A stretch of DNA of 64,000 nucleotides from Paraburkholderia sp. BL23I1N1. GTDB lineage: Bacteria; Pseudomonadota; Gammaproteobacteria; Burkholderiales; Burkholderiaceae. The stretch's first letter is position 1, and each line of letters starts with the position of its first letter. Below, piece by piece: positions 25,254-44,104 of this stretch. The notes below the pieces were generated by a model. That model made no database searches. It saw only the letters and a program-made list of their open reading frames with translations, and was not told the DNA's origin. A program made the translations under genes and the position numbers. The stretch covers positions 62,001 through 126,000 of the forward strand of contig NZ_RAPV01000004.1 in NCBI RefSeq assembly GCF_003610295.1, written 5' to 3'.

Positions 25254-26150
25254 TCAGCCCGTAGCCATTTCCTTGGCGGTTTGCTTCAATTGTGCGACGA
25301 ACTGATTCACGATTAACGAGTGCGGCCGGCCCGGTGCGAATAGAAAGCGAGGCTCCACTGGCACCGCTGGCGAGAGTTTCCGAGAAATCAGATCGGGAAA
25401 AGACCGACTCATCAGCGCGAAAGGATCCACTAGCGCTACAGCGTTAGCCTCTCTCACTAGCGCGCAGAGCACGGGCGTACTATTTGAGACGAACACGCTG
25501 GCAAAGCTTCGACCCTGCGCGCGAAAAGCCTCGCGCAGGCGCCAACCAGTGAGCGTGTCCTCGCCAAACGTAGCTAGCATCTCATTATCGAGCAGGCGCG
25601 GTGTGATCGTCTTACGTGACGCGAGCGGGTGCCCGGCGCGCATCACGCAGCGCAACTCTGCGCTACAAAACTCTTCCACTTCGAGCGTGCCGGAAGGTGC
25701 GGCCACGTCGAGGATGCCGAAATCCGCCTGATTGTTGTTCACGTATTCGACGACATGTCGCGTAGGCAACGCGCGAATATCAAACTCAACATACGGATGC
25801 GTGTTGCGGAACTCGCCAACAGCGCGCGCCACGATAGTGGTGGCCAGCATCGACACCGTGGCCACACGTATCGATCCACGCTGACCTTGCTGGATTTCGC
25901 GTGCCGTTTCGGCGATGGATTGAACGCTGCCAAAGAGCCGTTCGATCTCGGGCAGGATGGCCTCGGCTTCGGGCGTGCAGACGAGCCGCCCCTTCACGCG
26001 CAGAAAGAGTGTGAGGCCGATTTCTTCTTCCAGTATGCGCAATGTCTTGGTGACAGCAGGCTGCGACACATAGAGAAGACGCGCCGCTGCCGACACGCTG
26101 CCCGCCTTCACTACTGCGCGGAAAATCTCGAGATGGCGCACTTTGAGCAT
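25254..26150 (-). CDS. LysR-family transcriptional regulator of the adjacent catabolic operon
   Basis: 298 residues. The N-terminal winged helix-turn-helix, LEIFRAVVKAGSVSAAARLL and SQPAVTKTLRILEEEIGLTL, is typical of LysR regulators. Residues about 90-290 form the two-lobed effector domain (IRVATVSMLATTIVARAVGE and VDPFALMSRSFPDLI). It is divergent from the aldehyde dehydrogenase operon with a 140-base intergenic region containing ATAAGCTTAT (26186-26195), a candidate LysR-type site. It probably activates the operon in response to the imported substrate. The inducer is unknown. Confidence 0.9.
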   Translation of the reverse strand: MLKVRHLEIFRAVVKAGSVSAAARLLYVSQPAVTKTLRILEEEIGLTLFLRVKGRLVCTPEAEAILPEIERLFGSVQSIAETAREIQQGQRGSIRVATVSMLATTIVARAVGEFRNTHPYVEFDIRALPTRHVVEYVNNNQADFGILDVAAPSGTLEVEEFCSAELRCVMRAGHPLASRKTITPRLLDNEMLATFGEDTLTGWRLREAFRAQGRSFASVFVSNSTPVLCALVREANAVALVDPFALMSRSFPDLISRKLSPAVPVEPRFLFAPGRPHSLIVNQFVAQLKQTAKEMATG

Positions 26151-26290: not shown

Positions 26291-27784
26291 GTGAGCATTC
26301 CCGACGCATCGGTGTGGCGCGCCCGCGCCCAGGAGATTCGGCCAGAGGGCCGGGCGTTCATCGACGGACGCTATGTGAGCGCGCTGTCGGGCAAGACCTT
26401 CGAGACTCTCAATCCCGCCACGGGCCGCGTAATCGCAGAAGTGGCCGAGTGCGGACAGGAGGACGTGGATCTTGCTGTTGCAAGTGCCCGAAAGGCGTTT
26501 GAGTCTGGCGTATGGTCGCGTCGCGCACCGGCCGAGCGCAAGGCCGTGATGCTGCGTTTCGCGCAACTCATGCTGGAGCATCGCGAGGAACTGGCGCTGC
26601 TCGAATCGCTCGATGTCGGCAAACCCATCGCCAGCGCCTATAACGGCGACATCGTTAGCTCTGCCACATGCATTCAGTGGTATGGCGAGGCTATCGACAA
26701 GCTTTATGGCGAGACCGCGCCCGCCGCGCCGGATATGACAACCGTGATCGTGCGCGAACCGCTCGGCGTGGTGGCGGCCGTGGTGCCCTGGAACTATCCG
26801 CTTTCCATGGCGAGCTGGAAGCTCGGTCCCGCGCTGGCGGCAGGCAATTCCGTCGTGCTCAAGCCCGCCGAACAGTCGCCGCTCAGCGCGATCCGCATTG
26901 CCGCGCTTGCAACAGAGGCTGGCTTGCCGCCCGGCGTGCTCAATGTATTGCCGGGCTATGGCGAGACCGCCGGTCGTGCGCTCGGGCTGCACATGGACGT
27001 GGACGCGGTCGGTTTCACCGGCTCCACGGCCGTTGGCAAACTTTTCATGCAGTACTCAGGGCAATCGAATATCAAGCGCGTGGGGCTCGAATGCGGTGGC
27101 AAGAGCCCGCATATCGTCCTTGACGATTGCCCCGATCTCGACGCCGCCGCCCGCGCCGTGGCGGCCGGCATCTTCGCCAATAGCGGCCAGGTGTGCAACG
27201 CTGGCTCGCGGCTCATCGTGCAGGCGGCGGTGCGTGACGAACTGCTGGAGAAAGTCGCAGCGATTGCGCGAGAACTCGTGCCGGGCGATCCACTCGATCC
27301 CGCGACGAAGATGGGTGCGATCGTCAGCCAGACGCAGCACGACACGGTGATGTCCTTTATCGACGCGGGACGTGCGGACGGCGCGCGGGTCATCGCGGGC
27401 GGACGTGCCGCGCGGCCTGAATCGGGCGGCTATTTCATCGAGCCTACCGTGTTCGACCAGGTGAGCAACGACATGCGTATCGCACGTGAGGAGATTTTCG
27501 GCCCGGTGTTGTCGGCGATTACGGTCGGGACGCCTGAAGAGGCGGTGCGGGTCGCCAACGATACGATTTATGGCCTGGCCGCCGCCGTGTGGACCTCGAA
27601 CGTGGCGCGCGCACAGCAGGTGTCGCGGCAATTGAAAGCGGGTGTAGTGTGGGTCAACTGCTTTGATCGCGGCACGATGTCCTCGCCATTCGGCGGCTTC
27701 AAACAATCCGGTTTCGGCCGCGACAAGTCGATGCACGCCTTCGACAAATACATGGACTGGAAGGCGATCTGGATCGCCGGATGA
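26291..27784 (+). CDS. NAD(P)+-dependent aldehyde dehydrogenase (PuuC-like)
   Basis: 497 residues of the aldehyde dehydrogenase superfamily, closest in pattern to gamma-glutamyl-gamma-aminobutyraldehyde or betaine-aldehyde type enzymes. Asn168 and Lys191 (VVPWNYP, LKPAEQSP) lie in the cofactor site. Glu267 in LECGGKSPHIV is the general base and Cys302 in NSGQVCNAGSRL the nucleophile; FGGFKQSGFGRD is near the C-terminus. It would oxidise an aldehyde to the acid. The start is GTG with AAGGAG 7 nt upstream. It is the first gene of an eight-gene same-strand cluster with a polyamine-type ABC transporter, so an amino-aldehyde substrate is likely but unproven. Confidence 0.9.
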   Translation: MSIPDASVWRARAQEIRPEGRAFIDGRYVSALSGKTFETLNPATGRVIAEVAECGQEDVDLAVASARKAFESGVWSRRAPAERKAVMLRFAQLMLEHREELALLESLDVGKPIASAYNGDIVSSATCIQWYGEAIDKLYGETAPAAPDMTTVIVREPLGVVAAVVPWNYPLSMASWKLGPALAAGNSVVLKPAEQSPLSAIRIAALATEAGLPPGVLNVLPGYGETAGRALGLHMDVDAVGFTGSTAVGKLFMQYSGQSNIKRVGLECGGKSPHIVLDDCPDLDAAARAVAAGIFANSGQVCNAGSRLIVQAAVRDELLEKVAAIARELVPGDPLDPATKMGAIVSQTQHDTVMSFIDAGRADGARVIAGGRAARPESGGYFIEPTVFDQVSNDMRIAREEIFGPVLSAITVGTPEEAVRVANDTIYGLAAAVWTSNVARAQQVSRQLKAGVVWVNCFDRGTMSSPFGGFKQSGFGRDKSMHAFDKYMDWKAIWIAG

Positions 27785-27815
27785 CGCACTGCCCCGATCA
27801 CGCATGGAGACCAAC

Positions 27816-28916
27816 ATGAAAACGCCTACTTCTCGCAGTCCGATCAACAACCTCAAGACCGACGCCGCAGCCGATTCCCCGTCGCGCCCGCGTCGTGCAT
27901 TTCTGCAGCAGGCGGGCGCGTTGGCGGGTGCCGCGCTGCTTGGCGCGCCGGCTATCGTGCGCGCGCAATCGAAGAGCATTAGCGTGACGTGCTGGGGCGG
28001 CGCATACGAGGCGGCGGTGCGGGCCGCGTTCGCTGAGCCCTTCACGAAGGAAACGGGCATCGCGGTCAATCTCGTCAATAGCGCCGACCTCGCGCGCATG
28101 AAAGTGCAGGTGGACTCGAAGAATGTTTCGTGGGACGTGTTCGACAGCATCGGTCCGCAGATCGTCGCCGGCTCGCGTCAAGGCATGTGGGAAAAGCTCG
28201 ATCCGGCTATCGTCAAGTCCGATGGTCTCGTCACGAAAACGGGCGCGGACTTCGTAGGTACGTATTCGTACGCAGGTGGTATCGGCTACGACCCGAAGCG
28301 CGGCGGTGGCAAACATCCCAGTACGTATGCCGAGTTCTGGGACGTGAAGGCGTTTCCCGGCCGCCGTGGTTTGCGCCCGCGAGTGAGCGAAAACCTGGAG
28401 ATGGCGCTGCTGGCGGATGGCGTCGCGCCGGGCAAACTCTATCCGCTCGACGTGGAACGCGCGTTCAAGGCGATGGACCGCATCAAGCCTTCCGTGCGCA
28501 AATGGATCGAGACGACGCCGGAAACGGTCACGCTCATCGCGAGCAACGAGCTCGATTTCACCTACACGTATCTGAGCCGCGTGCTGCCGGCGCAACGCGC
28601 GGGTACGTCGATCCAGATGTCGATGAAGCAGACGCTCAACAGCCTCGAATATCTGGCGGTGCCGAAGTACGGCAAGAACACGCAGGCGGCGATGCAGTAC
28701 GTGGCGTTCTGTCTGCGTCCCGACCGGCAGGCGGCGTTCTGTGAAATGGTGGAATTCGCGCCGAATGCCGTGCAAGCCTTGCCGCTCGTTTCCGCCGCCG
28801 CGAAGGCGCGCATGCCGGATATGCACGATCCCAACAGCATCATCATCAACGACACATGGTGGGGCGATCACTACGATGCACTCCAGAACCGCTTCACGAC
28901 ATGGATGCTGACGTAA
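27816..28916 (+). CDS. PotD-like ABC transporter substrate-binding protein, Tat exported
   Basis: 366 residues. A long N-terminus carries the twin-arginine motif SRPRRAFLQQAGALAGAALL and a cleavage site after IVRAQ, so the folded protein probably uses Tat. The mature part begins ISVTCWGGAYEAAVRAAFAE, the family 1/PotD-PotF type, and contains GGIGYDPKR and YTYLSRVLPAQRAG in the ligand cleft. It binds the substrate in the periplasm for the two permeases and ATPase encoded downstream. GGAGA precedes ATG 27816; ATG 27804 is an alternative. The ligand is unknown; a polyamine or other cationic compound is the family expectation. Confidence 0.85.
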   Translation: MKTPTSRSPINNLKTDAAADSPSRPRRAFLQQAGALAGAALLGAPAIVRAQSKSISVTCWGGAYEAAVRAAFAEPFTKETGIAVNLVNSADLARMKVQVDSKNVSWDVFDSIGPQIVAGSRQGMWEKLDPAIVKSDGLVTKTGADFVGTYSYAGGIGYDPKRGGGKHPSTYAEFWDVKAFPGRRGLRPRVSENLEMALLADGVAPGKLYPLDVERAFKAMDRIKPSVRKWIETTPETVTLIASNELDFTYTYLSRVLPAQRAGTSIQMSMKQTLNSLEYLAVPKYGKNTQAAMQYVAFCLRPDRQAAFCEMVEFAPNAVQALPLVSAAAKARMPDMHDPNSIIINDTWWGDHYDALQNRFTTWMLT

Positions 28917-28934
28917 AAGAACCCGGAGCGCGCG

Positions 28935-29768
28935 ATGAATTACACGCTGAACCTGAAGGCCGTGGTCGTGATGTTGCTGCCGCTTTACGGCCTGCTGGCG
29001 GTGTTCTTTCTCTGGCCGCTGGGCGTGGTGGGGTGGTCGAGTATCTACGAGCACGCGTTCACGCTGCGCGGCTACGAGCAGGTGCTCACCAATCCGCTGA
29101 TTCGTCGCGTGCTCGGCAATACCATGAGCATCAGCGTGCTCGCCACGGCCACGAGTCTCGTGCTCGGCTACATCATTGCGCTGCATCTGGCGCGAATGCC
29201 AATGTCGAAACGCGCCCCGTATCTCGTGATGGTGATGTTGCCGTTCTGGACCAGCATTCTCGTCAAAAGCTACGCGTTTACCGTGATTCTGGGCAGCGCG
29301 GGCATTATCGCGAAGCTGGCGGGCTGGCTGAGCGGCGATGCGTGGCATCCGGATCTGATTTTTAATCGTACCAGCGTGGTGATCGGCATGACCAATTATC
29401 TGCTGCCGTTCATGGTGCTGCCGATTCTCACGAGCCTCACCACGCAGAACCGTAATCTCAAGTTTGCCGCCGAGTTGATGGGCGCGGGCCCGTTCATGAT
29501 TTTCGCGCGCATCACATTGCCACTTTCCATGCCCGGTGTGATCGCGGGCGTGCTGATGTGTTTCACGCTCTCGATGGGTATGTACATCACTCCAGCGTTG
29601 CTCGGCGGTCCGCGCGACATGATGCTCGCGAACCTGATCGATTTCTACACGCGCCAGACGCTCGACTGGACGCTCGCGGCTTCGATCGCGATGATGCTGC
29701 TGGTCCTCTCTGGCGTGCTCATCGCCATGCTGGGCCGTGTGCAGCAGGGCAAGGAGGTGCTCGCATGA
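28935..29768 (+). CDS. ABC transporter permease (PotB-like)
   Basis: 277 residues with six predicted membrane segments, the first LLPLYGLLAVFFLWPLGVV. The binding-protein-dependent transport (EAA) loop reads ELMGAGPFMIFARITLPLSM with the conserved G followed by I-x-L-P and contacts the ATPase. It forms the membrane pore with the next gene product. The stop overlaps the start of the second permease (ATGA), indicating coupling. It differs from true PotB only in detail visible by alignment, so the substrate is not assigned. Confidence 0.85.
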   Translation: MNYTLNLKAVVVMLLPLYGLLAVFFLWPLGVVGWSSIYEHAFTLRGYEQVLTNPLIRRVLGNTMSISVLATATSLVLGYIIALHLARMPMSKRAPYLVMVMLPFWTSILVKSYAFTVILGSAGIIAKLAGWLSGDAWHPDLIFNRTSVVIGMTNYLLPFMVLPILTSLTTQNRNLKFAAELMGAGPFMIFARITLPLSMPGVIAGVLMCFTLSMGMYITPALLGGPRDMMLANLIDFYTRQTLDWTLAASIAMMLLVLSGVLIAMLGRVQQGKEVLA

Positions 29769-30616
29769 TGGACACCGCAACCCGCGTGGGCAACGACTTC
29801 GTGAAGCCCGCACCCAGACGCCACGACTGGCACGCAGCGATGCGCGTACTCGGTGCGGTCGGTGGCTGGTGCGGCTATCTGTTCCTGCTGCTGCCGAGCC
29901 TCGTGATCGTGCCGATTTCGTTCGGTGGTGGCACCGAACTGAGCTTTCCGCCCAAAACGTTTTCTTTCGCGCTGTTCCAGCAATTTCTCGCCGATCCGGC
30001 GTGGCGGGGCGCATGCGTCACCAGCGTGACGGTGGCCTTGCTGGCGTCGGCCATTTCGATCACGGTGGGCGTGCCCGGTGCCTATGCACTTGCGCGCGGT
30101 CGTTTTCCCGGCAAACGCGTGTTCGAAACGTTCGCCATCACACCGTTGCTCGTGCCGGTCGTCGTGCTCGGACTCGGCGTCTACAAGCAGTTCTCCATGT
30201 TGGCGCTGGTCAACACCATCTGGGGTCTCGCGCTCGCGCACGCCGTGCTGGTGGTGCCGTTCGTGATCATCGCGGTGGGCTCGGGGTTGCGTCATGCGGA
30301 TGTGTCGCTCGAAGCTGTCGCGCTCGTCATGGGGGCGAGCCGCCTGCGTATTTTCTTTCAGGTAGTGCTGCCGCAGATTCGCGCTTCGGTAGCAGTGAGC
30401 GTGCTCTTTGCGTTCCTGCTCTCGTTCGACGAAGTGGTGGTCGCCTATTTCATCTCCGGGCCGCAAACCACGACGCTGCCGGTCAAGATGTATAGCGCGA
30501 TCCGCTGGGAAGTGTCGCCGGTGCTCGCAGCCGTGTCCACGCTGCTCACCGTCATCTCGCTTCTGGTGTGTCTCGGCATCATGGCATTGCAACGACGCGA
30601 CGCCTCCGCCGAATGA
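29765..30616 (+). CDS. ABC transporter permease (PotC-like)
   Basis: 283 residues with about six membrane helices. The EAA loop is VALVMGASRLRIFFQVVLPQ, and LLSFDEVVVAYFISGPQTTT is a motif shared with PotC/PotI permeases. ATG 29765 overlaps the previous stop. It is the partner of the preceding permease in the import complex. The first 35 residues are a polar cytoplasmic extension that contains HDW and precedes the first helix. Confidence 0.85.
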   Translation: MMDTATRVGNDFVKPAPRRHDWHAAMRVLGAVGGWCGYLFLLLPSLVIVPISFGGGTELSFPPKTFSFALFQQFLADPAWRGACVTSVTVALLASAISITVGVPGAYALARGRFPGKRVFETFAITPLLVPVVVLGLGVYKQFSMLALVNTIWGLALAHAVLVVPFVIIAVGSGLRHADVSLEAVALVMGASRLRIFFQVVLPQIRASVAVSVLFAFLLSFDEVVVAYFISGPQTTTLPVKMYSAIRWEVSPVLAAVSTLLTVISLLVCLGIMALQRRDASAE

Positions 30617-30653
30617 CATTCGACCATAACAAAACATAGCGAACGCGACGAAC

Positions 30654-32243
30654 ATGGCGAACCACTACGACGCAGTGATCATTGGTGCGGGACATAATGG
30701 GCTCGTGTGCGGCGCTTATCTGGCGCGCAAGGGCTTCAAGGTCTGTCTGCTGGAGCGGCGCGAACTCGTGGGCGGCGCGGCCGTGAGCGAGGCCTTATGG
30801 CCGGGATACCGCGTTTCCACAGCGTCTTACACAATGGCGCTGCTGCAACCGCGCATCATCCAGGAACTGGAGCTGGCGAAGTACGGCTACGAGATCATAG
30901 TCCCACCGCCCATGCTGCATCTTTACGGGCAGGGACGCAGCCTCGCATTTCGCGCGGACGGCGAGCAACTGCGTGCGGACATTGCCCGCTTCAGCAAGGC
31001 CGATGCGGACTCATATGGCCGATATCGGGCGTATATGGCACGACTTGGCAAAGTGGTGTCCGAGATGCTGTGGGAAGTTCCGCCCGATCCCTCCGATAGC
31101 GGCCTTGGCGCGCGCAGCCGGCTGCTCGGCTTCGCCTGGCGTTTTCGCGACATCGGCGAGCAGTTCTACGACCTCTACGACGTCCTCACGCTGAGCGCAC
31201 GCGATTTTCTGGCGCGCTGGTTCGAGTCTGACGAGATGATTACCGCAATGGGTTTCTACGCGTCGTGCGGCGGCGCCGCGACGAGCATCTGTTCGCCCGG
31301 TTCGGCTTATGTTCTGCTGCGCGGCTTCATTCGCGATCACAGCACCAATGCGGGGCCGGCGGGCTTCGTGCGCGGCGGCATGGGCTCGATCTCTGAAGCG
31401 ATCGCCGCATCCGGCAAGGCGCATGGCATGGAAGTGCGCTGCGATGCGCCGGTTGCCTCGGTCATCGTTAAAGGCGAGCGCGCAACCGGCGTGCGGCTTG
31501 CTTCGGGCGAAGAGATCGAAGCGGGTTGCGTGATTTCGAATGTGGCCACCAAGGTGCTGTTTCAGCAGCTCGTGAGTGCGGAGAATGTATCGCCCGAATT
31601 TCTCTCGAGAGTTGCGCAGATACGCGACCGCTCCACGGCCTTCAAGGTCAACCTCGCGCTCAAGCGGTTACCCACATTCAAGGACTTCGACGCGCAAACA
31701 GCAGGGTTTGCGTATCCGGCGCAAGTGCGTATCGGACCTTCGGTGGAATATCTCGAACGCGCATGGGACGCCGCGAAATACGGCGAAATCTCGCCGCGGC
31801 CACCGCTCGTCGTGTTGAGTCCGAGCGCGGTGGACCCGAGCGTGACGCCAGAAGGCAAGCACCTGATGAGCATTTTTGGCCAGCATGCGCCTTACGCGCT
31901 GCGCGAGGGCTCGTGGGATACGCAGCGTGAGCATCTGTACGACATCGTGCTCGACACGCTTTCTGCGTACGTGCCCGACATACGCGATTGCATCGACGAT
32001 GCACAGGTGCTTTCGCCTGCTGACCTCGAACGGATTTTCGCGCTGCCCGGTGGCCACGTGCATCACGGCGAATTGAGCGCCGACCAGATTTTCTTCAGGC
32101 GTCCCGTGCAAGGCGCGGCGGACTATCGCACGCCAATCAAGGGGCTTTATCAATGTGGCGCATCGGTGCATCCGGGCGGCGGTGTAACGGGTGTGCCGGG
32201 ACACAACGCGGCGACAATGGTGATGCGCGGCGAGCGGCATTGA
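30654..32243 (+). CDS. FAD-dependent oxidoreductase (phytoene-desaturase/PYROXD2-like)
   Basis: 529 residues. The N-terminal dinucleotide fold, DAVIIGAGHNGLVCGAYLAR followed by LLERRELVGGAA, binds FAD. The C-terminal GLYQCGASVHPGGGVTG with PGHNAA is the closing FAD motif of the CrtI/PYROXD2 group. The function of this bacterial subgroup is mostly unknown; carotenoid synthesis is unlikely given an ABC importer and aldehyde dehydrogenase in the same operon. Oxidation or desaturation of the imported amine or its acyl derivative is a reasonable inference. It lies 37 nt after the permease and 20 nt before the ATPase gene. Confidence 0.8.
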   Translation: MANHYDAVIIGAGHNGLVCGAYLARKGFKVCLLERRELVGGAAVSEALWPGYRVSTASYTMALLQPRIIQELELAKYGYEIIVPPPMLHLYGQGRSLAFRADGEQLRADIARFSKADADSYGRYRAYMARLGKVVSEMLWEVPPDPSDSGLGARSRLLGFAWRFRDIGEQFYDLYDVLTLSARDFLARWFESDEMITAMGFYASCGGAATSICSPGSAYVLLRGFIRDHSTNAGPAGFVRGGMGSISEAIAASGKAHGMEVRCDAPVASVIVKGERATGVRLASGEEIEAGCVISNVATKVLFQQLVSAENVSPEFLSRVAQIRDRSTAFKVNLALKRLPTFKDFDAQTAGFAYPAQVRIGPSVEYLERAWDAAKYGEISPRPPLVVLSPSAVDPSVTPEGKHLMSIFGQHAPYALREGSWDTQREHLYDIVLDTLSAYVPDIRDCIDDAQVLSPADLERIFALPGGHVHHGELSADQIFFRRPVQGAADYRTPIKGLYQCGASVHPGGGVTGVPGHNAATMVMRGERH

Positions 32244-32263
32244 TCGGACAGATCAAGGATTGC

Positions 32264-33361
32264 ATGATGAACATGATCGAACTGAAACAGGTCTCACGGC
32301 GCTACGGCGCAGTGGAAGCACTCGCGCCACTCGACTTCAGCGTGAAGCAGGGCGAGTTCGTTACCCTGCTCGGGCCGAGCGGTTCGGGCAAGACCACGCT
32401 GCTGAACCTGATTGCGGGCATGGTTAGCCCGTCGTCGGGGCAGATATTCGTGCGTGGGGTCGACATCACGAATGCGCCGCCCAGCTCGCGCGGCCTCGGT
32501 ATGGTCTTTCAGAACTATGCGCTGATGCCGCATATGACAGTGTTCGACAACATTGCGTTTCCGCTGCACGTTCGCAAGATGCCGAAGGAGGAGATTCGCC
32601 GCAAGGTGAAAGACGTGCTGGACATGGTGCGATTGCCCGACATCGCGGCGCGCAAGCCGAAGGAACTCTCGGGCGGCCAGCAGCAGCGCGTATCGCTCGC
32701 GCGTTGCATCGTGTACAACCCCGCGCTGATTCTGCTGGATGAGCCGCTCGGCGCACTCGACAAGAAGTTGCGCGAGCAGATGCAGCTCGAAATCCGCCGC
32801 CTGCACGCGCAACTGGGCATCACGATGCTGAACGTCACGCACGATCAGGACGAGGCGCTGTCAATGTCGGATCGCATCGTTCTGATGAATCAGGGCCGCA
32901 TTGAGCAGGTCGCGACGCCGGACGAACTCTATCGCTCGCCACGCACAGCGTTTGCGGCGAGTTTCATCGGCGCGGCCAATCTGATTTCCGGCACCGTGCA
33001 GGACAACGCGGGCGAGCATACGGTTGTGTCCACGCCGCTCGGCTTGCTGCCCGCCACGATGAGGTCTGGTGCGGTGTCGCGTGGTGCAGCCGTGAAGCTG
33101 CTGGTGCGTCCGGAAAGCGTACGCATGACATGCGCTCTTCATTCGCCGGATGTGGATACCGCGAGCGGATTGCGCCACGCAGGCATGCTGGAAGATTCGA
33201 TCACGCTCGGCAGCGTGGTGCGTCATCACGTGCGTTTGGCGTGCGATATGCAGATCGTTGTGCAGCAGCAGGGCAACCGGCGGCAGATCACGCAGGAACG
33301 CGGTGCGCCGGTTCTGCTTGACTGGCTGCCCGAGGATTGCCAGATCATCTTGCAGGACTGA
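32264..33361 (+). CDS. ABC transporter ATP-binding protein (PotA-like)
   Basis: 365 residues. Walker A is LLGPSGSGKTTLLNL, the Q-loop lies in MVFQNYALMPHM, the signature is LSGGQQQRVSLARC, Walker B is ILLDEPLGALD and the H-loop is NVTHDQDEAL. A C-terminal TOBE-type regulatory domain begins near residue 240 (VRPESVRM). It energises import with the permeases encoded upstream. AAGGA precedes two adjacent ATGs (32264 and 32267). The gene is separated from its permeases by the FAD oxidoreductase, an unusual order suggesting the enzyme and transporter belong to one functional unit. Confidence 0.9.
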   Translation: MMNMIELKQVSRRYGAVEALAPLDFSVKQGEFVTLLGPSGSGKTTLLNLIAGMVSPSSGQIFVRGVDITNAPPSSRGLGMVFQNYALMPHMTVFDNIAFPLHVRKMPKEEIRRKVKDVLDMVRLPDIAARKPKELSGGQQQRVSLARCIVYNPALILLDEPLGALDKKLREQMQLEIRRLHAQLGITMLNVTHDQDEALSMSDRIVLMNQGRIEQVATPDELYRSPRTAFAASFIGAANLISGTVQDNAGEHTVVSTPLGLLPATMRSGAVSRGAAVKLLVRPESVRMTCALHSPDVDTASGLRHAGMLEDSITLGSVVRHHVRLACDMQIVVQQQGNRRQITQERGAPVLLDWLPEDCQIILQD

Positions 33362-33416
33362 GCCACGCAAAACGCGCGCCTTGCCGCGCGAAGCTTCGAT
33401 ATTTCTGGGGAACAGT

Positions 33417-35057
33417 ATGAAGACACAGTCGCCGACCGTGGAGGACGAACTCGCTCGTCGAAAAGGTCAGGAGCAACTCGCATTGCCTGAATCGCTTGGG
33501 GAGTTCGTGCACGAGCAGGCCGCCCTTCACGGCGACAGGATCGCGGCGGTGTGGTTCGACCGCGGCATCAGCATGACGTATGCGCAGATCGACCGCGCGG
33601 CTTCGCAACTGGCTGACTCGCTCGTGAGGCGCGGCATTCGCAAGGGTTGCCACGTTGCGCTGATGCTGAAGAATGCGCCTGAGTTTCCGATTACGTGGAT
33701 TGCGCTTGGTCGGATCGGCGCCGTGATGGTGCCGGTGAATACGGCCTATACACCGGATGAAATGACGTTCGTGCTCACTGACGCGGACGCTCAATACCTC
33801 GTGATCGACGCTGAATTCCTGCCGCGCATTGCCGAAGCGCCCGCATTGCCGAGTTTGCTCTCGTGGGAGCGCGTGATCGTGTGTGGAGAGAGCGAACATC
33901 CGCTTAACTGGCAAACGCTACTCGATGCCGGCAGCGCGGATTTTATGGCGTCGAGCGCGATTTCCCGCCACGATCTGCTGAATCTGCAGTACACATCAGG
34001 CACCACTGGTTTTCCGAAAGGCTGCATGCTGAGCCACGACTACTGGATGATTCATTGCCACGGTGCGGCGCGGCATCGGCGTGGGCCGGACGCGGGAATC
34101 GAGAATGTGCTGATCTGGGCGCCATTCTTTTACATGGACCCGATGTGGCAGTTTCTCATGACGATGAAACTCGGCGGCACCGCGTACATTGCGGAGCGCA
34201 TGAGTCTCACGCGCTTTATGTCGTGGCTGGTCGACTATCGCATTCACTACTGCATCTTTCCCGAGCCTGCGCTGAGCCAGCATCCACGCAGCGCGCGCGA
34301 TGCGGACGTGTGCCTGAAGTACATCAGCATCTACGGTTGGACCAGACCCGCACGAGAAGAAGTTCAGGCGCGCTTTAACGTGATTGCGCGTGAAGGCTTC
34401 GGCATGACCGAAGTGGGCACGGGCGCGCTCGTGCCGGCATGGGCGCATGACGAGGCACTGGAGCGCACCTGTGGTCTGCCCGCACCGTTTCGCGAGCTAC
34501 AGATCCGGCGAGAGGACGGCAGCCTCGCCGAGGTCGATGAAACTGGCGAATTGTGGATTCGCGGTCGCGGCATTCTATGGGGTTATTACAAACGCCCCGA
34601 AGCCAACGCCGAGAGCTTCGACGGTGACTGGTTTCGCACAGGCGATCTGTTCAGGCGCGACGAGCAAGGCTTCTATTTCATCGTCGGACGCATCAAGGAG
34701 ATGATCAAGCGCGCGGGCGAGAATGTTTCGGCAACCGAAGTGGAGACCGTTCTGCGTAGCATGGACGCGATCGACGAAGCAGCCGTGGTGGCCGTGCCCG
34801 ATCCGCTGCGGCGTGAAGAGGTGAAGGCTTATCTGAAGTTGCGCGATGGGCTTGCGCTGGGAGATTTGCCGCCCGAAGTGGTATTCGAGCATTGCGCGCG
34901 GCATCTCGCGCCGTTCAAGGTGCCGCGCTATCTGCAATATATCGAGGGCGATTTCCCACGCACGCCTTCGCGAAAGATTGCAAAGAAGCGATTGATCGCC
35001 GAAACGGCAGACCCATTCGCGGGGACTTTCGATCGCCAGGAATCGCGCTGGCGCTGA
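33417..35057 (+). CDS. Acyl-CoA ligase (AMP-forming, CaiC-like)
   Basis: 546 residues of the ANL superfamily. A3 is LQYTSGTTGFPKGCMLSH, A5 is GFGMTEVG, A7-A8 is RTGDLFRRDEQGFYFIVGRI followed by KEMIKRAGENVSATEVE. The A10 lysine is in FPRTPSRKIAKK, where the usual Gly before Lys is Arg. It activates a carboxylate to the acyl-AMP and then the CoA thioester. The N-terminal pattern resembles crotonobetaine/carnitine-CoA ligases. In this operon it may activate the acid formed by the aldehyde dehydrogenase. The start ATG 33417 follows CTGGGGAACAGT. Confidence 0.85.
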   Translation: MKTQSPTVEDELARRKGQEQLALPESLGEFVHEQAALHGDRIAAVWFDRGISMTYAQIDRAASQLADSLVRRGIRKGCHVALMLKNAPEFPITWIALGRIGAVMVPVNTAYTPDEMTFVLTDADAQYLVIDAEFLPRIAEAPALPSLLSWERVIVCGESEHPLNWQTLLDAGSADFMASSAISRHDLLNLQYTSGTTGFPKGCMLSHDYWMIHCHGAARHRRGPDAGIENVLIWAPFFYMDPMWQFLMTMKLGGTAYIAERMSLTRFMSWLVDYRIHYCIFPEPALSQHPRSARDADVCLKYISIYGWTRPAREEVQARFNVIAREGFGMTEVGTGALVPAWAHDEALERTCGLPAPFRELQIRREDGSLAEVDETGELWIRGRGILWGYYKRPEANAESFDGDWFRTGDLFRRDEQGFYFIVGRIKEMIKRAGENVSATEVETVLRSMDAIDEAAVVAVPDPLRREEVKAYLKLRDGLALGDLPPEVVFEHCARHLAPFKVPRYLQYIEGDFPRTPSRKIAKKRLIAETADPFAGTFDRQESRWR

Positions 35058-35080
35058 CGCCTTGTTTGCTGGAGTTTCTC

Positions 35081-35932
35081 ATGTTCGTGGATTTTTCGAG
35101 TCGTCCGCCCTCTCTCCAGTTCGACGGACCTGCCAGTCATCTGGCGAACTATCGGCGTGTTTATGAAGGCACGGAACGCCAGGTGGCCGATTTGGGCAGT
35201 GATGATCCGCTAACCGACTATCTTGCCACTTACGAGCGCCTGAACGCGCGTCACGTTGTGCTGAAAGCGCGCGATCTGACCAGCACGTTTGGCGTAAAAA
35301 TCTCGAATGAGGACGTGGCTGCGTTTTGCCGAACGCACGGCGAGCGATACATCGGCTTTGCGGGCGTCGACCCGCACAAGGGCGCCGCGGCGGTTGTGGA
35401 GTTCGAAGCGGCGGTGCGTGATCTCGGTTTGCGCGGTCTGAACGTCCAAGGTTTCGAACACAGGCTGCCGATCGACGACCCGTTGCTATTTCCGCTCTAT
35501 CGCAAGTGTGTGGAGCTGAACGTACCGGCGAATATTCATTGCGGCACCAATTTTTCCACGCATACGTCGATGATGTTGGGCCATCCCGCCGCGCTCGACC
35601 GCGTGATGATGGACCTGCCCGATCTGCGGGTGTGCGCGTCGCCGCCGGGCTGGCCGTGGGTGCAGGAACTGCTCGCGGTGGCATGGCGGCATTCGAACGT
35701 CTGGATCGGCACGCTGGCGGTCCGTCCAAAACTGCTGGCCACCGCGCATTCGGGATACGAACCGCTTCTGCAATACGGCAGAACGGTGTTGAAAAAGCGC
35801 ATGATTTTCGGTTCCGCTTTTCCGATGATGTCGATTGAAAACGCATTGAGTGAATTCGACGCGCTCTCATTGCCGGACGCAGTGCGCGACGACTGGTGCG
35901 GCAACAATGCACTCGCGTTCCTGGGACTATGA
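35081..35932 (+). CDS. Amidohydrolase-fold protein lacking most metal ligands
   Basis: 283 residues with the ACMSD/amidohydrolase-2 fold pattern: N-terminal VDFSSRPPS, GFAGVDPHKGAAAVVEFE, PANIHCGTNF, DLRVCASPPGWPWVQELLAV and a final MIFGSAFPMM. In catalytic members the first strand carries H-x-H, here Ser6 and Arg8. The A-x-H-x-G ligand is replaced (SPPG, residues 187-190) and the FGSD Asp is Ala246. Only His153 remains. It is therefore probably not a metal hydrolase. A GGAG 6 nt before ATG 35081 and normal codon use argue for an expressed protein. It is the last gene of the operon; its role may be non-metal catalysis, binding or regulation. Confidence 0.8.
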   Translation: MFVDFSSRPPSLQFDGPASHLANYRRVYEGTERQVADLGSDDPLTDYLATYERLNARHVVLKARDLTSTFGVKISNEDVAAFCRTHGERYIGFAGVDPHKGAAAVVEFEAAVRDLGLRGLNVQGFEHRLPIDDPLLFPLYRKCVELNVPANIHCGTNFSTHTSMMLGHPAALDRVMMDLPDLRVCASPPGWPWVQELLAVAWRHSNVWIGTLAVRPKLLATAHSGYEPLLQYGRTVLKKRMIFGSAFPMMSIENALSEFDALSLPDAVRDDWCGNNALAFLGL

Positions 35933-36053
35933 CTGCCGCTTCTCAAGGTACTTCAGGGATCTCTGTGCTGCGTACCCCAGACGGCAACTTTTGATGGACG
36001 GGTGTATTTGTGGCTTTCGGGCGCTTATCTCTCACGTAACGCAATACACGCGC

Positions 36054-36533
36054 ATGTCGCCCGTAACGTTACGCGGTGAACGAAGCGGCGCCGTCGGCGC
36101 GCTATCGTTGTTGTTTGAGCAGTATCCGATGCTTGCGGCGTGGCTGGTCGTGCAAATCAGGCCGCGCCGCGTCAGCCTGCATCAGATCCCTTGCGATGAC
36201 GGTCTTCGCATCTGCCTGCGTGGCTTGCGTGCGCTCCCCGAAAGATTCCTGCAGGAGTGTCGGCAACCGGGCCTGACGGCTGCGGACTATCCGTTCAACA
36301 CAACGGGCCGCGCCATCCGGTCGCTGTCCTCACGCGTAAAGGCGGAACTGTTGCGTGGCTTCAGCACGGTAGCGCAAGCTGCCGGTGCCTCCCACCTGAG
36401 GGAATCGAACTTGAGACTGGGCGGTTTCAAGAGTGAAGCGCAACAGTGGGCTAATGAATGGAAGCTGAGGTTATCGACGCGGTTGCGAGCATACGTTCGA
36501 AGACCTCGAATGGTGAATGAAATGCATGGGTAG
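36054..36533 (+). pseudogene. Transposase/integrase N-terminal fragment (Mu/TniA-like)
   Basis: The frame encodes YPMLAAWLVVQIRPRRVSLH, LRGLRALPERFLQECRQPGL, TAADYPFNTTGRAIRSL and AQAAGASHLRES. These resemble the DNA-binding helical region of large DDE integrases of the Mu/TniA kind, which precedes the catalytic core. The catalytic domain is absent and the frame stops at 36533. The borders of the original element are not visible. Confidence rests on recall of the family pattern, not on an alignment. Confidence 0.4.
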
Positions 36534-36559
36534 CGCGAGGTCGGCTGTTGAGGCTACGG

Positions 36560-36770
36560 TTCCCGGCGCCTGTGGCGTGGGATGTCACGGACTAGCGCTC
36601 GCGTCGACCTCAGCGAGAGCAGGAAGTCCGCCTGCTTCAGGTTATTACCCGACGACCATCCAGTCACCTGGTGCGATCAGGCTTTGCAGAACATCGACGA
36701 TGCGCTCGGTGGGCAGGATCACGCCATCGGCTATCGAAGCAACTTGCGCAAGCCACCGAGGGTTTTTTCC
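36560..36770 (-). pseudogene. mdcA: Malonate decarboxylase alpha subunit (mdcA) N-terminal remnant
   Basis: On the minus strand, ADGVILPTERIVDVLQSLIA then PGDWMVVG match the start of MdcA, the acyl-carrier/CoA transferase subunit. A stop follows at 36645, but in the next frame NLKQADFL continues the family motif (G-D-N-Q-K-Q-A-D-F-L), followed after a second shift by LAEVDAS. So at least two frameshifts and loss of the rest of the gene are seen. No other mdc gene is present. It is a decayed relic, probably left by rearrangement beside the transposase fragment. Confidence 0.55.
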
Positions 36771-37058
36771 GCACGACGCGTGGCCCGGCGGGACTGCGAT
36801 GGACGTAGCTGGACATGTGTACTTCTGCTCAAGACGTGAGGCGAGTCTAAGAAGGGAGGTAAACCGGTTCAATCACCTTTGCGACGTATTCGTTGCCCAA
36901 GGCTAACGATCCTACGTGCATTGCGCGATAAGCCAGGCGGGGCGGGGCTGTCGGGCCGTCTGCTATCCGGGGGTCTCCCTCGTATCGCGGACGGATGCGT
37001 CGGGGATGTGACGAGGCCCGGCAGCGACGGTGTATGTCAGTACACGGCGGGACCAGCG
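36771..37058. other. Unassigned sequence between the mdcA relic and the LysR gene
   Basis: About 290 bases without a supported gene; it continues the debris zone 35933-37058. Nothing specific recognised. Confidence 0.4.
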
Positions 37059-37991
37059 TCAAGCAGCGGATTGCGCACCCCAACTGCTATTGGTAGCGGC
37101 GGCGTAGTCCATCAGCGTATCGAGCACCTCCTTCGCCGCGTGGCTGAGTTCATAATTGTCAGCCGTCACGATGTACTCAGATAGTCGGGTACGCACGCTG
37201 ATAGCGAGCGGTCTGACGAGGCGCCCGTCTTCGATCATTTCCGTGCAGCCGTAGGACCAGGCGAGCGCGACACCTTTTCCGGCACACGCCGCGCGGTAAG
37301 CCAGATCGAAATTGCTGACACGGATCGAGCTGTGATGATCGCGCGGCTCGACGCCCGCCAGTTCGAACCAGTCGTCCCAGCAGTTGCATATCGACAGACC
37401 GGCTTCAACGTCGATCAGCACTTCGTTCTGTAAATCGCATGCGCTCTGGATGGAGTGTTGCTCAAGGTAAGACGGGCTGCAGACCGGAAAAATTTCTTCA
37501 TCGAACAGCTTGTATTTGACGAGACCGGGCCAGTGGCCGTCTCCATAGTGGATAGCGAGATCGACGGCCTCACGGCGCGGATCGACCGGCTGATCGCTGG
37601 CGAGTACGCGGATATCGACTTCCGGATGGCGTTCGCGGAACCGGATGATGGCCGGCATCAGCCAGAAGCTCGACATCGCCACGCTCGCAGCGATCGTCAC
37701 GCTGGTCGATTCGAGATTCTCGATGATGGCCACCGCGCGGCGAATCGACATCAGGCTTTGCGCGATTGCTTGTTGAAAGACCATGCCGGCTTTGGTCAGC
37801 TCGATTTCGCGGTGCCGCCGATTGAAAAGCAGAACGCCAATCCTTTCTTCCAGCATCTGAATCTGCCGGCTCACCGCACCTTGCGACAGGTTTAGTTCTT
37901 CGGCCGCGCGCGTGAAGCTCAGGAGCCGCGCCGAGGCTTCGAACGCGCCAACTGCGTTGAGGGGAGGCAGACGTTTCCTCGGCTTGATCAT
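37059..37991 (-). CDS. LysR-family regulator (GcvA-like) divergent from the betaine monooxygenase genes
   Basis: 310 residues. The DNA-binding domain reads PPLNAVGAFEASARLLSFTR and AEELNLSQGAVSRQIQMLEE, the GcvA/AmpR subgroup pattern. The effector domain follows from about residue 95 (VTIAASVAMSSFWLMPAIIR, DLAIHYGDGHWPGL). It is transcribed away from gbcA with 345 bases between, so it is the likely regulator of betaine catabolism here. This differs from Pseudomonas, where the AraC-type GbdR has that role. Effector unknown; a betaine pathway intermediate or glycine is plausible. Confidence 0.9.
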   Translation of the reverse strand: MIKPRKRLPPLNAVGAFEASARLLSFTRAAEELNLSQGAVSRQIQMLEERIGVLLFNRRHREIELTKAGMVFQQAIAQSLMSIRRAVAIIENLESTSVTIAASVAMSSFWLMPAIIRFRERHPEVDIRVLASDQPVDPRREAVDLAIHYGDGHWPGLVKYKLFDEEIFPVCSPSYLEQHSIQSACDLQNEVLIDVEAGLSICNCWDDWFELAGVEPRDHHSSIRVSNFDLAYRAACAGKGVALAWSYGCTEMIEDGRLVRPLAISVRTRLSEYIVTADNYELSHAAKEVLDTLMDYAAATNSSWGAQSAA

Positions 37992-38336
37992 CGTGCTTCC
38001 CTGTGAGAACGGCGGCGTTTGCGGGCGTTCCGCGTCCTGTCGGTCACGCTTTGTTCAGAATGCTGTCATGAAAAAACGTTAGTCAAAAAACAATCTGCTT
38101 GGAATCCGGGTAAATCCTCACTAGGCCGCCGGGTCAGCGTTTACATTTGTTTCACCGTCAGTGCAAACATTGTCGCGCGCGCCGCTCTCGCATGCAAAAA
38201 CGCATGTCTGGCATCAGTAAAAATGGCTTGTCCCGTCAAAATTGGAGTCCTCTAATGAAACCAAGCCCTGAGAGGGCCGTCGCTGCCGCATACCTCAGGG
38301 TGCACATGGGATTTTCTGGAAACATCAGGATGGGAC
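37992..38336. promoter_or_regulatory. Divergent control region between the LysR regulator and gbcA
   Basis: 345 bases with no gene. It should contain both promoters and the LysR site. I see no single convincing -35/-10 pair. AGGATGGGAC (38328-38334 area) is the ribosome site of gbcA. Confidence 0.4.
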
Positions 38337-39578
38337 ATGTTCGACCATAAAAAACTCGATGCTTTGCTGGCGGCCTATACGCCGGGACGCCCTCTTGAGC
38401 AGGCGTTTTACAAGGACGCAGAACTATTCGAGGCGGACCTCGCACTCATCTGGCAGCGAAAGTGGCTGTTTGCCGGCTTGAGCTGCGAGATCAGGCAGAC
38501 CGGCGAGTGGTTCACGGTGCAGATTGGCGAGACGTCGGTTATCGTCGTGCGGGATCGTGCAGGTGCCGTGCGCGCCTTCTTTAACACCTGCCGTCATCGA
38601 GGCTCGCGCATCTGTGCGGGTGAGAAGGGCAAGTCAGGCGCATTCGCCTGCCCGTACCATCAATGGACCTATGGCCTCGATGGCAAGCTGATGTTCGCGC
38701 GCAACATGGGCGAGTCGTTTGACCTGTCGACCTTCTCCCTGAAGCCGGTTGCATGCGAGGTCGTAGCGGGCTATGTGTTTATCTGCCTGTCCAGTACGCC
38801 CGACGATTTCAGCGGCTTTCGCCGCCGCGTTGAACCGTACCTCGCGCCGCACGGCATCGAAGATGCGAAGATCGCCTACGAATCCACAATTGTCGAGAAA
38901 GGCAACTGGAAACTTGTACTCGAAAATAATCGCGAGTGCTACCACTGCAGCGCCAATCATCCGGAATTGCTGCGCACGATTTCCGAGTTCGATGGTCCGA
39001 CCGATCCGCGCTATGGCGGCGAGTTTGCGGCGAAGAGCGAACGCGACGAAGCGCGCTGGAGGCAGGTCGGCCTGCCGTATGCACCCGTCGAAGAAGAACC
39101 GGTGTATCGGATGGTGCGAGCCGCGCTGGAGCGGGGCGTGTCTTTCACGATGACGGGCGAGGCGGCCTGCAGCAAGGTCATGGGGATGCTTCCCGAGCGG
39201 GACGTCGGCGCGTTGCGTCTGTTGCGTTTTCCCAATACGTGGAATCATGCGCTGGGTGATCACGCGCTGGCATTCCGTCTCTTGCCGCTCGGCCCTCGCG
39301 AGACACAAGTCACGACAAAATGGATCGTGCACAAGGACGCGGTCGAAGGCGTCGACTACGACCTCGACACGCTGACCGAAGTCTGGAAAGCGACCAACGC
39401 ACAGGACCAGCGACTGGTCGAAACGAATCAGCTCGGCATCAATTCAATTGGCTACGAGCCAGGAGTCTATTCGGAACAGGTGGAGTCCGGCGTCATGGCA
39501 TTCGTGGACTGGTACATGGATGCACTCAGAGAAGGCCTCGCGCAGATGCCGAGGACCGTGCCGCTCAAGGTGTGTTGA
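38337..39578 (+). CDS. gbcA: Glycine betaine monooxygenase, Rieske oxygenase subunit
   Basis: 413 residues. The Rieske [2Fe-2S] ligands are Cys85/His87 (NTCRHRG) and Cys105/His108 (CPYHQW). The mononuclear iron site has His203 and His208 in NNRECYHCSANHPEL. This is an aromatic-ring-hydroxylating-type oxygenase alpha subunit. The following reductase plus dimethylglycine dehydrogenase, sarcosine oxidase and a betaine-type importer in the same region identify it as the betaine demethylase GbcA/BmoA rather than an aromatic dioxygenase. It converts glycine betaine to dimethylglycine and formaldehyde. The stop overlaps or abuts the reductase start. The stachydrine demethylase group is the main alternative. 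Confidence 0.85.
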   Translation: MFDHKKLDALLAAYTPGRPLEQAFYKDAELFEADLALIWQRKWLFAGLSCEIRQTGEWFTVQIGETSVIVVRDRAGAVRAFFNTCRHRGSRICAGEKGKSGAFACPYHQWTYGLDGKLMFARNMGESFDLSTFSLKPVACEVVAGYVFICLSSTPDDFSGFRRRVEPYLAPHGIEDAKIAYESTIVEKGNWKLVLENNRECYHCSANHPELLRTISEFDGPTDPRYGGEFAAKSERDEARWRQVGLPYAPVEEEPVYRMVRAALERGVSFTMTGEAACSKVMGMLPERDVGALRLLRFPNTWNHALGDHALAFRLLPLGPRETQVTTKWIVHKDAVEGVDYDLDTLTEVWKATNAQDQRLVETNQLGINSIGYEPGVYSEQVESGVMAFVDWYMDALREGLAQMPRTVPLKVC

Positions 39579-39580
39579 CA

Positions 39581-40633
39581 GTGGCCGCGAAGCAGGCAGG
39601 CTCCTTACCGTCAACGCGCGATGATGGCTTCTTCCTGGCGCAGTGCGTGGCAGTGGCCGACGAATCCGTGAACGTGAAAACGTTCGAGTTCGTCGCCGTT
39701 GACGGAAGATCGCTCGACTATGCCGCGGGGCAGCACATCACAGTTGAAGCGCCGACCCTCAGCGGCATTCTGTACCGCTGCTACACGTTGTCGTCGACGC
39801 CGACGCGTGCAGGGCGCTTCGCGATAACGGCGAAAGCCGCGCCTCATGGTCCGGTGTCCGCATGGTTGCATCAGGAAATTGCGCCAGGCGCTCGCTTTCG
39901 TATCTCCCCACCTTCAGGCGCGTTCATCGCTCCTGAAGCAACCGGAGGCGCGTATTTATTCGTCGCTGGAGGTGTGGGCATTACACCGCTCCTGTCGATG
40001 ACAAGGGCGTTATACGACGCGCGCGCCGAGATCGATCTTGTCTTCCTGCAATGTGCGAGCACGCAGGAAGATCTTCTCTTTCGCAAGGATCTGGAGGAGA
40101 TGGCGGCATCCTGGCCGAGTCTGCAAGTCAAGCTGACGGTATCGCGCGAGGCCGCTGTACCGCTTCTCGCTGGCCGGCTTGAACGCGCCAAATTGGCCCA
40201 ATGGATTCCCGATATCGCGAAGCGCACGATTTATTGCTGCGGCCCCGATGCATTCATGAAGACTGTCTACGAGGCTGCGGTGAGCCTTGGCGTTGCACCG
40301 CAACGGTATCACCAGGAGAGTTTCGTGCTGCCGCTCGCCGCGAACGCGTTTGAAGCAGTAGTGCCGACGGCGCAGGTCAGTGTGATGCTTGCAGCGTCGA
40401 GACTCGAGTGTGTCGCGTCAACGAACGATGTGCTGATAGACGCCGCCCAGTCCGTGGGTGTCGTGATCCCGAGTGCGTGCCGCGCCGGTATGTGCGGCAC
40501 CTGCAAGACACGTGTGATTGCGGGCCAGGTCGAGATGGCGCACAACGGCGGCATCACCGATGAAGAGATAGCAGAGGGATGGATCCTGACCTGTTGTGCA
40601 CGCCCGCTAACGGACATAGAACTGGACTGTTAG
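39581..40633 (+). CDS. gbcB: Glycine betaine monooxygenase, reductase subunit
   Basis: About 350 residues. The FAD-binding barrel has YRCYTLSSTPTR (the R-x-Y-S/T-type motif). The NAD-binding domain begins VAGGVGITPLLSMTRAL and ends with IYCCGPDAFMK. A C-terminal plant-type [2Fe-2S] ferredoxin domain follows, with SACRAGMCGTCKTR and a distal Cys in TCCARP. It passes electrons from NAD(P)H to the Rieske subunit. Candidate starts are GTG 39572, TTG 39575 and GTG 39581; the last gives 2 nt after the gbcA stop. Either way the two genes are translationally coupled. Confidence 0.85.
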   Translation: MAAKQAGSLPSTRDDGFFLAQCVAVADESVNVKTFEFVAVDGRSLDYAAGQHITVEAPTLSGILYRCYTLSSTPTRAGRFAITAKAAPHGPVSAWLHQEIAPGARFRISPPSGAFIAPEATGGAYLFVAGGVGITPLLSMTRALYDARAEIDLVFLQCASTQEDLLFRKDLEEMAASWPSLQVKLTVSREAAVPLLAGRLERAKLAQWIPDIAKRTIYCCGPDAFMKTVYEAAVSLGVAPQRYHQESFVLPLAANAFEAVVPTAQVSVMLAASRLECVASTNDVLIDAAQSVGVVIPSACRAGMCGTCKTRVIAGQVEMAHNGGITDEEIAEGWILTCCARPLTDIELDC

Positions 40634-40875
40634 GCTGACAGATTCGATTCTATGGTGGATGAATTCGTAAAACAATCAGTATGCCTAATGTCGTTGCGGT
40701 GCGGTTTTTCACATGCGAAATTGCATGAAAACCATGTTCTAAATTCGTTTGAGAAAAGAATTAACGCTTCTTAGCATGCATGTCACACGCGCTGAAGCAT
40801 TCAATCGCGACATGATGGACGAGATGCCGGTTCTGTCGCTTTTCGATACACGCACACACGAATGAAAGGGAATTC

Positions 40876-43293: not shown

Positions 43294-43354
43294 TACGACG
43301 GCTTCGGCGCATGCCAGCCGTGGGGGCAGTGATCATTCAATGAGCAGGGTGACT

Positions 43355-44104
43355 ATGAAAATCGTGGTGGCAGTCAAGCGCGTGATCGATTCGAACGTGA
43401 AGCCGCGGGTGCGCGCGGACCAGACGGGAGTCGATATGACGAACGTGAAGATGTCGATGAATCCATTCGACGAGATCGCCGTCGAGGAAGCCGTGCGCCT
43501 GAAGGAAGCGGGTGTCGCGACCGAAGTGATTGCTGTGTCGGCCGGTGTTACGCAGGCGCAGGAAACACTGCGCACGGCGCTGGCGATCGGCGCGGATCGG
43601 GCAATCCTGATCGAGTCGAATGAAGAAATTCAGCCGCTGGCGGTAGCCAGACTGCTGCATGCGGTCATCGAGCGAGAAAACCCGCAACTCGTGATTCTCG
43701 GCAAGCAGGCAATCGACGACGACTCGAACCAGACCGGTCAGATGCTCGCAGCGCTGACAGGCTGGCCGCAGGCCACCTTCGCGGCGAAGGTGGATCTGGT
43801 GGATGGCGCGGCGCTCGTTTGCCGTGAAGTGGACGGCGGTACCGAGACTGTGTCGCTCAGTTTGCCCGCCGTCATTACGACGGATCTGCGTCTGAACGAG
43901 CCGCGCTATGTAACCTTGCCGAGCATCATGAAGGCGAAGAAAAAGCCACTGCAGACACTGACGCCCGGCGAGCTCGGCGTGGACGTGACGCCCCGGCTGA
44001 AAACGCTGAAGGTCGTGGAGCCGCCCAGGCGTGCCGCCGGTGTCAGGGTGCCGGACGTGCAGACTTTACTCGACAAGCTTAAGACTGAAGCCAGAGTGAT
44101 CTGA
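43355..44104 (+). CDS. etfB: Electron transfer flavoprotein beta subunit
   Basis: 249 residues, the usual EtfB length. [20 protein letters not shown] starts the protein, [16 protein letters not shown] is the conserved strand-helix, and the AMP/recognition-loop region has [20 protein letters not shown] and IMKAKKKP. Together with EtfA it binds FAD and AMP and carries electrons from the upstream dehydrogenase to the ETF-ubiquinone oxidoreductase. AGGGTGA precedes ATG 43355; an upstream in-frame ATG at 43340 is less likely. Confidence 0.92.

Follow-up and report, generated by a model that had tools for sequence, protein, structure and literature searches.

The locus described here raises the question of what becomes of an amidohydrolase-fold protein when nearly all of its metal ligands are replaced, and whether such a protein is a damaged copy, a pseudoenzyme or an enzyme that works without metal. 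It lies in a window of 64,000 nucleotides from Paraburkholderia sp. BL23I1N1 (positions 62,001 to 126,000 of contig NZ_RAPV01000004.1), where the gene, here termed AH, occupies positions 35081-35932 of the forward strand and is translated into 283 residues with no stop inside. Translation, Pfam matching, alignment and modelling together describe its product as a PF04909 protein without metal ligands. An initial annotation, made from the sequence, had already taken the fold and the ribosome site to be intact, and both were found to be so. The PF04909 (Amidohydro_2) match spans residues 42-283 with 118.9 bits against a cut-off of 26.4, and a GGAG at 35071-35074 is located 6 nt upstream of the ATG. 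The structure model, built from 119 sequences (pLDDT 91.4, pTM 0.90), forms a complete (beta/alpha)8 barrel whose eight strands end at residues 4, 62, 95, 122, 152, 186, 211 and 243. The NCBIfam scan returned no name for AH. Its nearest solved structure is that of the uncharacterised protein BB4693 (3irs), and the ACMSD matches in the PDB span only the middle part of AH.

Four of the five usual ligands are substituted in AH. Ser6 and Arg8 replace the two histidines of the HxH motif on strand 1, where the sequence is Ser-Ser-Arg (residues 6-8, 35096..35104, forward strand), Pro188 takes the place of the strand-6 histidine within Ala-Ser-Pro-Pro-Gly (residues 186-190, 35636..35650, forward strand) and Ala246 (35816..35818, forward strand) stands at the site of the strand-8 aspartate. 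His153, which follows strand 5 in the model (35537..35539, forward strand), is the sole canonical ligand left. The initial annotation had read each of these residues in the same way, and our alignments show that columns 6-8, 186-190, 246 and 153 face the HxH motif, the histidine of A-x-H-x-G, the aspartate of FGSD and the strand-5 histidine, respectively, of relatives that keep their ligands. The host genome itself holds sixteen PF04909 matches, fifteen of them above the cut-off and AH among these. The strand-6 histidine is retained in 13 of the 14 other strong genes, at the position where AH has proline; the N-terminal columns of this paralogue alignment were out of register, so the strand-6 column alone was counted. 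Another PF04909 gene of the same genome (G000:C1:5784445-5785236) was observed to have a glutamate (SAENG) at this site.

The substitutions are shared by all close relatives that were sampled. From the 764 relatives returned by a protein search, the best 120, reaching down to about 60% identity, were taken; removal of one entry (P0027, 270 residues, no contig given) left 119 proteins with the window protein counted in. A genome scan with the patterns ASPPGWPW and GLN[VLI]Q[GC]FE[HL] gave 91 places, of which 80 loci were kept. By their titles these loci belong mostly to alpha- and betaproteobacteria, the remainder being a Rokubacterium MAG and a few unplaced loci; one of the 80 (L017) holds the orthologue of Paraburkholderia xenovorans LB400. 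The combined alignment therefore has 199 rows, 119 proteins and 80 loci, of which 190 are distinct since nine loci duplicate a listed protein; in one locus the gene is split (L090) and only the part after residue 116 was scored. Among these 199 rows, histidine at positions 6, 8 or 188 and aspartate at position 246 were never observed, whereas His153 is present in every row. Pro188 is likewise invariant, residues 6 and 8 drift across the subfamily, and position 246 is A, G or S in 198 rows and F in one. As the 80 loci were found by two motifs, the conservation of those motifs among them is partly by construction; the 119 proteins, which were chosen otherwise, agree. No close homologue with standard ligands was found among the 199 rows, and no histidine or aspartate ligand was found shifted within the old site. 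The loss of these four ligands in every row thus defines a subfamily under purifying selection.

The purifying selection is observed at the level of the gene, where dN/dS against five close relatives is 0.05-0.09, as calculated for five of six pairs (L020 skipped), in which synonymous sites approach saturation (differences of 0.52-0.63). When 150 genomes of the order were searched, E-values leapt from 2e-147 to 3e-48 with none between, which sets the class clearly apart within that search. Judged from these sequence comparisons, the AH class is real and conserved, and its substitutions are neither chance nor sequencing error. AH is present in 4 of 200 genomes of the family, with one copy split. 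This split copy belongs to Paraburkholderia sartisoli (L090:2842-10501), where AH is interrupted by inserted DNA that encodes a Tn3-family transposase and a phage-type integrase and where the adjoining ligase and ABC ATPase genes are called as long open genes. In the literature searched, which consisted mostly of papers available without subscription, we found no description of the AH class, nor of a metal-free or pseudo amidohydrolase-2 subfamily recognisable as AH.

The initial annotation had stated that only His153 remains. This is true of the canonical ligands and does not extend to the polar residues of the pocket, where E126, Q123 and N157 are invariant and D65 is nearly so. The residues conserved in all 199 rows are Q123, E126, H153, N157 and Y226, and N121, N151, K62 and D65 are nearly fixed (194-198 rows); D65 and D97 each occur in 198 rows. 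Q123 and E126 belong to a Q-G-F-E stretch (residues 123-126, 35447..35458, forward strand) located after strand 4 in the model. Of the old ligand positions, those on strands 1 and 8 vary, and 153 and 188 are fixed. In the 198 rows that remain when the split copy is left out, the entropy at positions 6, 8 and 246 is 1.41, 1.26 and 1.62 bits, respectively, against a protein mean of 1.17, and is zero at positions 123, 153 and 188. In the same rows, with loop sets chosen by hand from the strand ends, the mouth loops have 0.57 bits against 0.92 in the opposite loops (p 0.009) and 1.35 in the helices (p 2e-6). The kept residues are probably situated where strands 2-5 open at their C-terminal ends, the substrate side in this fold, with Y226 placed by the model in the loop after strand 7. 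In each of the pairs N121/Q123 and N151/H153, the two residues sit two positions apart at the end of a single strand, and their side chains should point the same way.

A smaller comparison of 19 AH rows with 18 BB4693-like rows, six ligand-bearing rows, two further rows and one decarboxylase-like row separates what is particular to AH from what is common. Q123, E126, N157, P188 and Y226 were observed in 19 of 19 AH rows and K62 in 18 of 19, and all six are absent from the 24 BB4693-like and ligand-bearing rows. H20 and W272 are likewise fixed in the AH rows alone. N121, Y24 and Y28 are fixed in AH yet are found in some others, with N121 present in 5 of the 18 BB4693-like rows, and D65 is common to AH and all six ligand-bearing rows. 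Among the latter, L107 deviates with tyrosine at position 8 and aspartate at position 153, so the full ligand set is present in only five of the six. The pattern of conservation suggests that the pocket residues are kept as in an enzyme; with half of the old site drifting and the other half fixed, it points to an activity without metal. Ligand loss that is shared, together with the keeping of different pocket residues, looks like a maintained, uncharacterised class and not like a broken copy.

Missing ligands are not unique to AH. The initial annotation had proposed either a pseudoenzyme or new chemistry, and while the shared loss does mark a subfamily under purifying selection, BB4693-like relatives also lack ligands. 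By alignment, BB4693 of Bordetella bronchiseptica (3irs, 3k4w) is itself without part of the metal site; no mention of it was found in the literature searched. BB4693-like rows differ from AH in that the strand-6 histidine is kept (18 of 18), glutamate is present where AH has Gln123, and His153 is absent. The combination of R6, E123 and H188 is found in all 18 BB4693-like rows and in none of the 19 AH rows, although the PP of the RxRPP motif is common to both, and the possibility that AH is a plain member of the BB4693 group is ruled out on this basis, although the two may share an origin. The branching order depends on the rows used. In a first tree with more rows, the BB4693-like group falls outside a group of AH and ligand-bearing proteins (support 95/92), whereas a second tree, from which eight long-branch rows had been removed, joins AH with the BB4693-like group (82/73), with AU p values of 0.241 and 0.233 for the alternatives; two fragments below 230 residues were excluded from the trees. 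On these trees the ligands may have been lost once or twice. Four BB4693-like loci (L099, L100, L102 and L113) were seen to have tandem pairs of two different paralogues, short of metal ligands, that recall the AibH1/AibH2 heteromer. One genome (G140) has at least 16 matches to the AH profile. A further small group (L097:4451-5308 and L098:3717-4583) is without HxH and the strand-5 histidine and keeps the strand-6 histidine and strand-8 aspartate; it is found near an AMP ligase that is 25-28% identical to the one in the window.

AH is the last gene of a same-strand run that has a LysR regulator at its front. The regulator (25254..26150, reverse strand), identified by domain scan, is divergent and occupies the same place in close relatives. 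The run opens with an aldehyde dehydrogenase (26291..27784), assigned from Pfam and NCBIfam, whose best NCBIfam match is PuuC with 631.5 bits against a cut-off of 850. It is followed by a solute-binding protein of the SBP_bac_8 type by domain scan (27804..28916), with a start and a Tat-like signal set by eye, and by two ABC permeases placed by position and conserved order, which look PotB-like (28935..29768) and PotC-like (29762..30616) by eye. Domain scans then identify an FAD-dependent oxidoreductase of the CrtI/CrtO type (30654..32243) and an ABC transporter ATPase with a TOBE domain (32270..33361). The penultimate gene encodes an AMP-forming acyl-CoA ligase-like protein of 546 residues (33417..35057), with its start set by relatives of that length; all of these genes are on the forward strand, and 23 nt separate the end of the ligase gene from the start of AH. 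Terminator-like sites after AH are marginal (2 against 0.8 expected), and an Rfam search of window positions 24000-44000 returned nothing at gathering score. Further downstream, at 38337-43293, a Rieske oxygenase, a ferredoxin reductase and a DAO/GCV_T protein are found behind a second LysR gene, a gene make-up which we take to resemble glycine-betaine-type demethylation. A link of AH to these genes was considered, but few matches at 60% coverage or more occur near AH elsewhere: to the Rieske protein in L048 (30%) and L051 (26%), and to the reductase in L078 (30%). Two loci (L041 and L043) have a shorter gene that is partly like the DAO/GCV_T protein of the window.

The association of AH with the ligase across loci is strong. 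A homologue of the window ligase was found in 77 of the 80 loci, in 74 of them on the same strand (BLAST, E below 1e-30, more than 60% of the query), and the count by called-gene clusters is 73. One of the 77 matches (L070) has just 27% identity, lies on the opposite strand and was discounted. A convincing ligase, of at least 38% identity, is thus present in 76 loci, with identities to the window ligase that form two bands: at least 60% in 11 loci and 40-48% in 65. In the three loci without any ligase, AH lies close to at least one contig end, at most 1.3, 0.4 or 2.7 kb away. Ligase and AH are directly adjacent in 30 of the 71 loci in which both were called, and in 28 of these 30 they share a strand and are no more than 300 bp apart. 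Because AMP ligases are widespread, chance could account for some of the ligase matches; as a loose control with smaller flanks, a ligase match was found in one of 12 BB4693-like loci, on the other strand. A ligase (25-29% identity) also occurs near the ligand-bearing genes of L107 and L111 and near those of the L097/L098 group, and the ligase neighbour may therefore predate the loss of the ligands. Among the 200 family genomes, ligases of 87-91% identity occur in the same four genomes as AH, and two more genomes have ligases of only 41-46%; such co-occurrence would be expected if the operon is transferred as a unit. Three loci (L032, L034 and L053) have minimal operons that seem to hold two ligase genes flanking AH and a transporter, with no oxidase or amidase called.

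The other companions change from locus to locus. The FAD enzyme was found in 39 of the 80 loci and the aldehyde dehydrogenase in 38 by BLAST, and called genes place the FAD enzyme in 38. Cluster counts, which are lower bounds because some genes were missed in several loci (L056, L059, L060 and L083), give an amidase in 27 loci, a class III aminotransferase in 18, an acetylpolyamine-deacetylase-like protein (Hist_deacetyl) in 16 and caprolactamase-like subunits in 9-10. The transporters are of the Pot, Opp or Tct kinds. On a marine Paracoccaceae plasmid, by its own annotation, an aminotransferase, a PuuC-like aldehyde dehydrogenase, the ligase, a CrtI-like enzyme and AH are consecutive and are followed by a regulator, beyond which the opposite strand carries NylB'-like hydrolase, acetylpolyamine hydrolase-like and amidase-type genes. 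On a Sulfitobacter plasmid, the ligase, AH and an amidase are consecutive beside an ABC transporter. According to a published account, caprolactam breakdown proceeds through an ATP-dependent lactamase, an omega-aminotransferase and a dehydrogenase to adipate, with CoA activation proposed to occur by a CoA-transferase (PMC6061476). A theme in which an amide or lactam is turned into an acid and then into an acyl-CoA agrees with these gene sets, with AH presumably taking a place within the route. The theme may not hold for all members, as 14 of the 80 loci, some of them on short contigs, lack any counted C-N gene (with the FAD enzyme and aldehyde dehydrogenase counted by BLAST); among these, for example in L030, L034 and L053, the conserved genes are the ligase, AH and a Pot-type transporter. 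We also considered a Puu-like pathway for acyl-masked amines with AH as its hydrolase; the oxidase is present in 39 of the 80 loci and missing from about half. The literature searched on acetylpolyamine, lactam and nylB genes contained no matching operon.

Characterised members of the fold show how far AH departs from them. LigI, the 2-pyrone-4,6-dicarboxylate lactonase of cog3618, keeps HxH and uses the strand-8 aspartate as a base, whereas AH has neither. Compared with the metal-dependent decarboxylases of cog2159 (gamma-resorcylate, 5-carboxyvanillate and iso-orotate decarboxylases and ACMSD), AH retains only the counterpart of the third histidine. In iso-orotate decarboxylase, the metal ligands are His12, His14, His195 and Asp323, and the strand-8 aspartate is the calculated proton donor (PMC6305744). 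In the benzoxazole pair NatL2/NatAM, an adenylating ligase passes its product to the amidohydrolase-fold enzyme NatAM, which is about 490 residues long and has a zinc site with His75, His77, His253 and Asp345 (PMC7204872). The pair resembles the ligase and AH in its pairing of a ligase with an amidohydrolase-fold protein and differs in its zinc site and in its biosynthetic rather than catabolic operon.

We propose that AH is a metal-free enzyme whose pocket has been rebuilt on other residues and which acts on the substrate or the product of the ligase, a reading to which we would give an even chance. The ancestral metal site would have been lost and the barrel pocket rebuilt around other residues. 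With the strand-8 aspartate gone, another acid/base is needed, and among the residues at the mouth the best-conserved candidates are His153 together with E126 or D65; this pair would serve as the general acid/base, and the Gln/Asn amides together with K62 would hold a carbonyl or carboxylate. The substrate would be a carboxylic acid, acyl-AMP or acyl-CoA used or made by the operon ligase, in a route that would import a compound, in many cases an amine, amide or lactam, and convert it to acyl-CoA. A more specific version, which we hold tentatively and consider somewhat doubtful, is that AH founds a metal-free class in which catalysis has moved to a His153/E126/Q123/Asn centre at strands 2-5 and is directed at ligase-made acyl-AMP or acyl-CoA, the ligase and AH forming a portable two-enzyme module found in several amine, amide and lactam pathways.

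The main rival to a metal-free enzyme is a pseudoenzyme, a non-catalytic barrel that binds the ligase and steers, stabilises or regulates it in the manner of AibH1 or the CRMPs. The loss of every ligand but one would be expected of such a protein, as would the presence of a ligase in 76 of the 80 loci while other companions change, and there are precedents for it. In the AibH1H2 hydroxylase, AibH1 is described as an amidohydrolase-fold subunit that is probably non-catalytic and yet essential (PMC7782822). AibH1 still binds one metal and has a paralogous partner; a second relative of AH at the same locus (E up to 1e-20) was found in none of 79 of the 80 loci, some on short contigs, and in the 80th, that of P. 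sartisoli, the match is its own split gene. CRMP1 is reported to have four of the five ligand positions changed and the strand-5 histidine kept, and to show no metal and no amidohydrolase activity (PMC2999344); in its ligand pattern it is like AH, which also keeps the strand-5 histidine when four of five ligands differ. Against a pure scaffold, the pocket side of AH is the most conserved of the parts compared and carries polar residues that a scaffold would not need. Direct adjacency in only 30 of 71 loci and the two bands of ligase identity are explained by a common pathway no less well than by a close partner surface. We consider a pseudoenzyme rather unlikely.

That AH still binds metal, at a site moved to H153, E126, D65 and D97, seems improbable to us. 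These residues are conserved, with H153 and E126 in all 199 rows and D65 and D97 in 198, following strands 5, 4, 2 and 3, respectively, in the model. Such a site would nevertheless take no ligand from strands 1, 6 or 8, and E126 is located in a short helix four residues past strand 4. Almost all BB4693-like and ligand-bearing relatives also have D97, and D65 is shared with the ligand-bearing proteins, so that neither residue counts as a particular acquisition of AH. A damaged or decaying copy confined to the host genome has a negligible chance and is refuted by the alignment and the dN/dS values. The split AH of P. sartisoli shows that a relative can be broken by a Tn3-family transposase insert, but the substitutions are common to the 199 rows, dN/dS is 0.05-0.09 in all five pairs, and the start, the ribosome site and the operon are intact in the window.

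Some public records name members of this class metal-dependent hydrolases, and no member examined can form the known site. The pair of ligase and AH marks a route that is probably catabolic and occurs for the most part in alpha- and betaproteobacteria. Should AH prove active in the absence of metal, it would illustrate how the barrel of a metalloenzyme can be converted to chemistry that needs none, with the pattern of loss indicating which residues to test.
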